A stretch of 13,377 nt of DNA from an uncultured Collinsella sp. Lineage in GTDB: Bacteria > Actinomycetota > Coriobacteriia > Coriobacteriales > Coriobacteriaceae. A program made the translations under genes and the position numbers. Under the pieces are notes generated by a model, which did no database searches, was not told the DNA's origin, and was given only the letters and a program-made list of their open reading frames with translations. Location: contig USPH01000011.1 in NCBI GenBank assembly GCA_900556515.1, positions 1 to 13,377 on the forward strand, read 5' to 3'. Each line of letters starts with the position of its first letter. The stretch's first letter is position 1. This document shows, piece after piece, positions 3,301-4,785 of the stretch.

Positions 3301-4785
3301 TCCATCGGCGAGCCCGGTACGCAGCTTACGATGCGTACCATTCACTCCGGCGGCGTCGCTGGCGTCGACGATATTACGCAGGGTCTGCCTACGGTCAGCC
3401 GTATGTTCGATATCGTCGGCAACGTCAACGAGAAGATTCTGGGTCGCGAGGCCGAGCTGGCCCCGTACTCCGGCCACCTCTCGATTAAGCCCGAGAAGTC
3501 CGAGTACGTGCTGACGCTCACCGACTCCGAGGATCACACCCGTGTCCTCGACGAGCGTCGCGTTCCCGCTTCGGTGCGCTTCATGCCCGAGATCGAGGAC
3601 GGCTGCGAGGTTCGCGCCGGCGACCAGATCACCAAGGGCTTCGTCAACTTCCGCAACCTGCGCAAGCTGACCGACATCGAGTCGACGATGCACACCTTCG
3701 TCGAGAGCGTCAAGGACGTCTACACCAGCCAGGGCGTCGACCTGAACGACAAGCACATCGAGGTGCTCGCACGTCAGATGCTGCGTCGCGTTCAGATCAC
3801 CAACCCCGGCGACTCCAAGTACCTGCTTGGTCAGTACGTCGACCGCTACGAGTTCGCCGACGAGGTCGAGCGCGTTGCCCGTCTGGGCGGTCAGGCTCCC
3901 GTGGCCGAGCCCGTCATCCTGGGTACGCTCAAGGTCGCGTCCAACATCGACTCCTGGCTGTCGAGCGCTTCGTTCATCCGTACTGCCGGCGTCCTTACCG
4001 AGGCTGCCATTGAGGGCAAGGTCGACCACCTGCTCGACCTCAAGTCCAACGTCATCGTGGGCAAGAAGATCCCCGCGGGCACGGGCCTCAAGGCGTACGA
4101 CCGCGCCGGCCTCACCTACCGCACGGCCGAGGGCTACGTCAACATCGACGGCCCGACGTCCCCGAACGCGAAGGTGCTGCCCGAGTGGGCGCCCGAGCAG
4201 CTCAAGGAGCTCGACGAGCAGCTCCCGCAGCAGCTCGACTGGGCCGGCTACGACGAGTTCGGTGGTGCTGACGGTTCGTTCACCCGCAACGGCCACACCA
4301 TCTCCGCCGAGAAGGCTCGCCTGTACCTGTTCGACGACCTGGGCGTGTCGCAGCGCTGGACCAACAAGTTCAGCGAGGTCGGCATCGAGACGGTCGGCGA
4401 CCTGGTCGGCAAGTCCGAGGAGGATCTGCTGCGCATCGATGGCATCGGTGCCAAGGCGATCGAGGAGCTCCGTGACGGTCTGGAGGCCCACGACCTGCTC
4501 TACATCCTCGAGAACAACGACGACGTTGCCGACGAGGAAGACCTCTCGCAGCTGCTGCAGATGGTCTTTAGCCCCGACGGTCCGGACGACATCCTGCTGG
4601 GCACCTCCGCTGCGCCGACGCATCACGCCGACGCCGACGAGGAGCTCCTGGGCGCCCCGATCGACGACAAGAAGGCTCCCGCCAACGGTGCCATCAACGA
4701 GGACATGGCTTCCCTCGACGAGCTGCTCAACCAGCTCGTGGACACCGACGACGCCGAAGAGGCCAAGGACAACGACGAGGAGTAA
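307..4785 (+). CDS. rpoC: RNA polymerase beta' subunit with long C-terminal extension
   Basis: Catalytic beta' subunit of RNA polymerase, 1492 residues from the GTG at 307. That start lies 9 nt after AAGGAG (292-297); a TTG at 301 lies only 3 nt away and is less likely. The N-terminal zinc ribbon has Cys62, 64, 77 and 80. A helical, acidic insertion at about residues 145-220 resembles the insertion seen in actinobacterial beta'. The active-site motif NADFDGDQ is at 533-540, with Mg-binding Asp535, 537 and 539. The second zinc site is Cys894, 965, 972 and 975, and the trigger-loop motif [11 protein letters not shown] starts near 1001. The conserved fold ends around PAGTGL (base 4089). About 230 further residues follow, including a helix-hairpin-helix segment (about 1349-1398) and a very acidic tail. 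The gene is co-transcribed with rpoB and followed by a terminator. Confidence 0.98.

Follow-up and report, generated by a model that had tools for sequence, protein, structure and literature searches.

The β′ subunit encoded in the stretch of DNA analyzed here (13,377 nucleotides from an uncultured Collinsella sp., hereafter called the window) ends with a helix-hairpin-helix domain of the type found at the C-terminus of the RNA polymerase α subunit (α-CTD), which occupies residues 1340-1402 of the rpoC product. A known domain type is thus placed on another subunit. Two α-CTDs are the mobile promoter-reading arms of the textbook bacterial RNA polymerase, and we give about even odds (a probability of roughly 0.5) to the reading that the end of β′ forms a tethered third CTD, acting as an extra docking arm on upstream DNA or on a regulator.

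The C-terminal extension of β′

The window opens with a frame that is open at its 5′ end (1-300) and resembles what we take to be the end of rpoB, followed by rpoC. The whole-subunit model NF011498/PRK14906 matches the β′ subunit with 2589.7 bits (cut-off 1437) over residues 4-1493, that is, with the extension included, while the general β′ model TIGR02386 spans residues 14-1266 and ends at base 4098, leaving an extension of 228 residues (1494-1266). The first-pass annotation, which was made from the sequence alone, had let the conserved β′ fold end near base 4089 and the frame continue for about 230 residues, and both estimates agree with these values. The features of the region are as follows.

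301..4785, plus strand: rpoC, RNA polymerase β′ subunit with C-terminal extension (open reading frame, TTG start, 1494 aa)
3901..4098, plus strand: final part of the conserved β′ core, residues 1201-1266 (end of TIGR02386; median dN/dS 0.155 over residues 1100-1266)
4099..4317, plus strand: tether joining the core to the domain, residues 1267-1339 (median dN/dS 0.409 over residues 1271-1338)
4318..4506, plus strand: α-CTD-like helix-hairpin-helix domain, residues 1340-1402 (PF03118, AlphaFold2, α-CTD matches in the PDB, dN/dS 0.087)
4333-4485, plus strand: Pfam PF03118 match inside the domain, residues 1345-1395 (profile search)
4354..4368, plus strand: R1352-W-T-N1355-K1356, equivalent to R265, N268, and C269 of E. 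coli α, DNA-contact helix (alignment to E. coli K-12 RpoA)
4441..4467, plus strand: hairpin G1381-I-G1383-A-K1385-A1386-I-E-E1389, equivalent to N294, G296, K298, S299, and E302 of α (alignment to E. coli K-12 RpoA)
4507..4782, plus strand: acidic tail behind the domain, residues 1403-1494 (median dN/dS 0.378)
4815..4848, plus strand: likely rpoC terminator, a GC-rich hairpin followed by T6 (read from the sequence)

The Pfam profile RNA_pol_A_CTD (PF03118, cut-off 23.8 bits) scores 34.9 bits on the whole protein, 38.2 on a 231-aa piece, and 40.3 on a 90-aa piece, with E-values of 1.2e-8 for the whole rpoC product and 2.6e-10 for the 90-aa piece. In a phmmer search against the PDB, the Bacillus subtilis α-CTD 1z3e_B matches the domain (E = 5.6e-6), and the solved relatives of the domain include the α-CTD complexed with Spx (1z3e). 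AlphaFold2 assigns a pLDDT of 91-96 to model residues 101-160, which correspond to rpoC residues 1343-1402; this high confidence and the E-values of 1e-8 to 1e-10 rule out a disordered or chance tail. RNA polymerase or α-CTD entries make up 49 of the 50 rows listed by VIA-align. Searched as a whole with Foldseek, the 252-aa model retrieved nothing at E <= 0.001 (best match 1.5e-3). Neither method ranked a fold other than the α-CTD type first; such a ranking does not in itself exclude other folds. Profile, sequence comparison with solved structures, and predicted fold thus support the α-CTD-like domain claimed in the first-pass annotation. Its base range of 4315-4500 holds as well, but its residue numbers were a few off, as its first motif stretch (12 residues) starts at residue 1357 (base 4369) and its second (10 residues) at residue 1381. 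It had named disorder, or a best match to a generic helix-hairpin-helix family with loss of the contact residues, as outcomes that would speak against the domain; the segment is predicted to be ordered, RNA_pol_A_CTD reaches 40.3 bits against 23.7 for HHH_5 (cut-off 27), and equivalents of R265, N268, and K298 are kept.

The segment is an α-CTD-type domain and not an α subunit, because it follows β′ and because relatives carry a separate canonical rpoA; what precedes it in the window is β′ and not an α N-terminal domain. When this β′ segment served as the query of a database search, 2149 long proteins were returned at E <= 1, and among the matches listed (120), PF03118 adjoins an Rpb1 domain in all according to precomputed Pfam lists. 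The combination of PF03118 with β′ is therefore already visible in databases.

The tether contains a conserved 17-residue stretch (bases ~4180-4230), its positions P52, L59, and P67 are invariant in alignment A2 of β′ tails, and a helix is predicted at AlphaFold2 model residues 57-65 with low to middling confidence. Most of the acidic tail is modelled at low pLDDT; a weak helix is predicted at model residues 224-242. Downstream of rpoC, the hairpin at 4815..4848 was not listed by a consensus terminator scan that considers loops of 3-8 only. Between rpoC and rpsL (4975-6532) lie an ECF-type sigma factor (Sigma70 r2 and r4_2) and a 358-aa protein, which has a DUF4179 match below the cut-off and is possibly its anti-sigma factor. 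The gap before rpsL holds a 39-nt inverted repeat (6865-6903 / 6971-7009, 97% complementary, spacing 67 nt). At the contig end (13329-13377), the sequence CTGTCTCTTATACACATCTCCGAGCCCACGAGAC... is joined to the last gene; it is presumably a Nextera transposase adapter with index and hence a sequencing artefact.

Distribution and origin of the β′ domain

All 21 near relatives examined have at least two RNA_pol_A_CTD matches, one in an rpoA-sized and one in a β′-sized frame (889 aa in G021, where the contig cuts it), so that the relatives of the window keep a separate, canonical α-CTD on rpoA. Genome G015 has a third α-CTD in a 631-aa frame. By per-genome match counts over 246 genomes sampled from the class, at least two matches occur in 162 of the 163 rows of the window's order, while the 83 rows of other orders divide into 38 with at least two, 42 with one, and 3 with none. 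A survey of rpoC C-termini over Coriobacteriia, as proposed in the first-pass annotation, found the domain widely in the genomes sampled. With the β′-domain profile on a 396-genome phylum sample, 35/35 Coriobacteriales were positive in frames of 1460-1501 aa; they are the 35 best among the matches listed, and rpoA-sized frames come next. Furthermore, 30 Coriobacteriia of other orders were hand-picked to cover one-match and two-match families, and the β′ tail was found in 27; the domain is present in 21/27 and absent in 6/27, which is no frequency because of the hand-picking.

The six non-carrier tails (L032, L034, L042, L045, L047, and L048, from families f11, f22, and f23) carry tandem Cys/His zinc-finger-like units of the pattern C-x6-G-x2-C...YC-x2-H, two per tail, at the end of β′. 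Three of the six were scanned: L042 scores above the cut-offs for both DUF5763 and zf-TRM13_CCCH, L032 above that for zf-TRM13_CCCH only, and L047 above that for DUF5763 only. Since sister families have such units where others have the domain, this position itself may be a site of evolutionary experiment.

Outside the class, 32 genomes of the phylum sample have at least two matches, of which 29 were followed (the 3 left out share the genus of G273). The domain is found on β′ in 3/3 genomes sampled from family f53, with all three tails read, and a match in a β′-sized frame is found in 6/15 genomes of f42, from two genera, with four of the six tails read. With the f53 domain as the query, 9 proteins were retrieved at E <= 0.01 from a set of 5.8 billion, all with Rpb1 domains. 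Sixty further families were represented by one genome each; 56 β′ tails were obtained and 0/56 were carriers by a domain HMM that recovers 9/9 known carriers and 0/6 zinc-finger tails. This survey covered families other than f91-f99, and as only part of f42 carries the domain, a single representative may overlook carriers within its family. In a search reaching beyond Actinomycetota, with a standard α-CTD behind β′ as the query, 19 proteins were found among 39 candidates, none with Rpb1 in the precomputed lists; this search reaches only proteins with shared exact 5-residue words, so that carriers elsewhere may have escaped it.

Several candidates and other proteins emerged along the way. The β′-sized frames L081 and L082 (G588 and G310) were rejected as β′ carriers; by eye they are kinase-like, perhaps of the BREX PglW type, with a stretch that matches the β′-domain profile, and the PglW model NF033442 weakly matches the window domain too. 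For a third candidate, a weak match in G081, the two stretches inspected contain no β′. P0130 (709 aa) and P0131 (1093 aa) have three and two α-CTD stretches, respectively, plus sigma-70 region 4, and P0144-P0148 are AAA ATPase proteins listed with an α-CTD domain (P0144 checked).

A tree of 65 domains, built on 61 columns only, places the α-CTDs on one side (90/88) and the β′ domains of Coriobacteriia on another (79/48 with L046; 85/87 for 24 rows without L046), and this split rules out a recent copy of the organism's own α-CTD. On a careful tree of the β′ core (56 rows, including 19 hand-picked of the 54 non-carrier rows from a quick tree), the carriers form three separate groups, with f42 next to the non-carrier L095 (100/100) and f53 among other non-carriers (100/99); the window's row and six f10/f12/f13 rows have long branches. 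All carriers and zinc-finger rows as one clade, a constraint set after the quick tree had been seen, were rejected (AU p 2.9e-5). The 6 zinc-finger rows form one group in the quick tree (83) but not in the careful one, and neither they (AU p 0.21) nor the 24 carrier rows (p 0.23) were rejected as a clade. Three gains of the domain on β′ in actinobacterial lineages are the simplest count, and one early gain with many losses may also explain the spread of carriers.

A side observation concerns omega (PF01192), whose matches are weak in six Coriobacteriales (G001, G006, G014, G016, G017, and G019; E 5.7e-5 to 1.7e-8), that of G001 scoring under the family cut-off, while 16 Coriobacteriia of other orders that were searched gave E-values of 7.1e-12 to 7.6e-16. 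Co-evolution of the divergent Coriobacteriales omega with the β′ tail is possible.

Selection, contact residues, and a possible role

For dN/dS, the window was compared with 75 of 80 listed loci (L171 and L191, where the pattern was unmatched, and L197, L202, and L211, which are without the cut motif, were left out), and only pairs with a dS of 0.05 to 1 entered the medians. The median is 0.087 for the domain (64 pairs), 0.155 for the end of the core (72 pairs), 0.409 for the tether, and 0.378 for the tail (70 pairs each), the pairs being non-independent as the window is common to all and many rows are near relatives. No row compared has a gap within the domain. Purifying selection is strong on the domain and not on its flanks. 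The PA(G/A)TG motif and the domain lie 79-84 residues apart in the Coriobacteriales rows read, compared with 97-161 in carriers of other orders, and the domain itself has a constant length of 61 residues across the Coriobacteriia rows read. Behind it, complete Coriobacteriales rows have a tail of 86-92 aa, whereas the carriers read from other orders have 0-6 aa (32 aa in L025, where the contig end cuts it). A 68-residue domain segment identical to that of the window occurs in 16 of the 80 listed loci, all 16 titled Collinsella, and the nearest genome compared has 75% of the 31-letter words sampled from the window.

E. coli K-12 RpoA (from NC_000913) served as the reference and was aligned with the β′ domains and with 33 distinct α-CTDs, which were drawn from 45 loci (one of them, L022, not rpoA-sized) by an extraction that accepted only sequences whose position 265 is R, K, or Q and whose position 268 is polar. 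In the window, R265 (R1352), N268 (N1355), G296 (G1383), K298 (K1385), and E302 (E1389) are kept, whereas C269 (K1356), N294 (G1381), and S299 (A1386) are changed, that is, 3/8 DNA-determinant positions. Among 25 distinct Coriobacteriia β′ domains, R265, G296, and E302 are found in 25/25 and K298 in 21/25; position 268 is N in 10, T in 8, K in 4, and another residue in 3, and the changed positions 269, 294, and 299 are K in 21, G in 25, and A in 24 domains, respectively. The equivalent of E261, which we take to be a sigma-contact residue of α, is G in 24/25. With determinant column lists for 265, 261, and 287 as we assume them, the mean majority frequency is 0.88 in the eight determinant columns versus 0.55 in the rest (p 0.0002, 20,000 draws), a test that pooled all columns, buried and structural residues included; the 287-like and 261-like columns reach 0.58 and 0.60. 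The net charge of the window domain is -7, and the mean is -3.9 for the 25 Coriobacteriia domains versus -0.64 for the α-CTDs. In f53, Y replaces R265 in 3/3 β′ domains while the hairpin is still α-like, which suggests a role that does not need minor-groove contact.

According to PMC5101437, R265, N294, and K298 may contact the minor grooves of UP elements between -40 and -60 and as far as -90; of the residues listed there, the β′ domain keeps R and K, and N294 is replaced by G in the window and in 25/25 Coriobacteriia domains. R265 and N268 bind DNA, and N268T in E. coli RpoA abolishes PBAD activity, as stated in PMC11434276. Judged by alignment, the DNA-contact residue set of the β′ domain is partly kept and partly changed, and acidity together with the loss of R265 in one lineage argue against simple DNA binding.

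The β′ C-terminus adjoins omega. We infer that the domain may bind DNA or a regulator. β′ holds an α-CTD-type domain by a flexible tether, probably as a third one in addition to the two canonical CTDs, which would remain on α. The arm would extend from the omega side to the upstream DNA of a promoter or to a protein on that DNA, and weak added contacts could recruit the polymerase or stabilize initiation complexes. DNA-binding domains coupled to omega can recruit E. coli polymerase from ~90 bases upstream, as described in PMC6021436. Because Coriobacteriales retain the hairpin as well as R, N, and K, DNA contact appears somewhat likelier than protein docking in this order, and it is less likely in f53.

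A serious but less probable explanation is a domain devoted to protein docking alone, which would have kept the α-CTD fold but lost DNA binding and whose partner would be sigma, a transcription factor, or an elongation factor (e.g., NusA). The acidic charge of the domain, the changed residues of the 265 determinant, the loss of N268 in 15/25 domains and of R265 in f53, and the Spx complex among the solved relatives are in line with docking, but the most conserved columns are those that E. coli uses for DNA, including R265, invariant in the Coriobacteriia domains, and the largely kept K298, and the activator-type 287-like columns are only about average. It is improbable that a generic helix-hairpin-helix domain converged on an α-CTD-like sequence and gives β′ a non-specific contact with the phosphate backbone. 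HHH_5 (PF14520) does score 33.7 bits in the relative L031, above its cut-off of 27 but under the PF03118 score of L031, and on the window pieces it stays at 19.3 to 23.7 bits. PF03118 leads HHH_5 in 5/5 β′ domains scanned (for f42 no HHH_5 was listed) and by 16.6 bits on the 90-aa piece of the window; moreover, an invariant R opens helix 1, and a 61-residue register without gaps joins the Coriobacteriia and f53 domains to the α-CTDs (the f42 domain, whose end is shorter, aligns with a gap of one residue). Least probable by our estimate is a role of the extension in β′/omega assembly or stability rather than promoter contacts, which would fit a Coriobacteriales omega that diverges as if co-varying with the changed β′ tail and an LP-rich tether stretch with residues invariant among 14 tails, but hardly fits a domain set off from the core by a tether that evolves fast and varies in length, with an unrelated Cys/His module at the same place in 6 relatives.

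Returning to the tethered third CTD, we tentatively extend this reading, at less than even odds, to a natural polymerase with three working CTD arms, whose β′ arm would recognize an additional site in upstream DNA or regulators of a class of its own. The arm would have been attached to the same end of β′ independently in at least three actinobacterial lineages and swapped for a zinc-finger arm in part of one class, so that the β′ C-terminus would be an evolvable site for reading promoters or factors. If a third, clade-wide β′ arm is true for gut bacteria such as Collinsella, Enorma, Atopobium, and Olsenella, the rules of promoter architecture and activation from E. coli would not carry over simply to these organisms, which would allow a direct test of whether the β′/omega side is usable as a surface for natural activation.

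Comparison with known systems

In titles and abstract starts of the open-licence literature, a subset that is no proof of being unpublished, no description of an α-CTD on β′ was found. NF011498 (PRK14906) covers the window β′ together with its extension, but it is a whole-subunit naming model whose title does not mention the α-CTD. The helix-hairpin-helix fold is shared with HHH_5 and other families of this kind, from which the window domain differs by an HHH_5 score below both the cut-off and PF03118. Among the closest known systems is the α-CTD of RNA polymerase itself (PF03118; E. coli RpoA 250-329, B. subtilis 1z3e_B), which the β′ domain resembles in predicted fold and 61-residue register, in the equivalents of R265, N268, G296, K298, and E302, and in being tethered at the C-terminus of a subunit of the same enzyme. 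Unlike the α-CTD, it sits on β′ in one copy per enzyme, is acidic, and carries the exchanges C269->K, N294->G, and S299->A.

BEAN and HABAS are likewise extra domains that particular lineages have on the large subunits; according to PMC11515920, they are insertions inside the core, unlike the C-terminal domain of the window. The figure legends of that paper state that N- and C-terminal residues outside the shared core were masked, and its main text contains none of the words Coriobacter, Collinsella, CTD, and helix-hairpin. Finally, the β′ domain resembles the synthetic fusions of omega or the α N-terminal domain to DNA-binding domains described in PMC6021436, which likewise place a DNA-contacting module on a non-sigma part of the enzyme. 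Those fusions are engineered, whereas the fusion in the window is natural and chromosomal.
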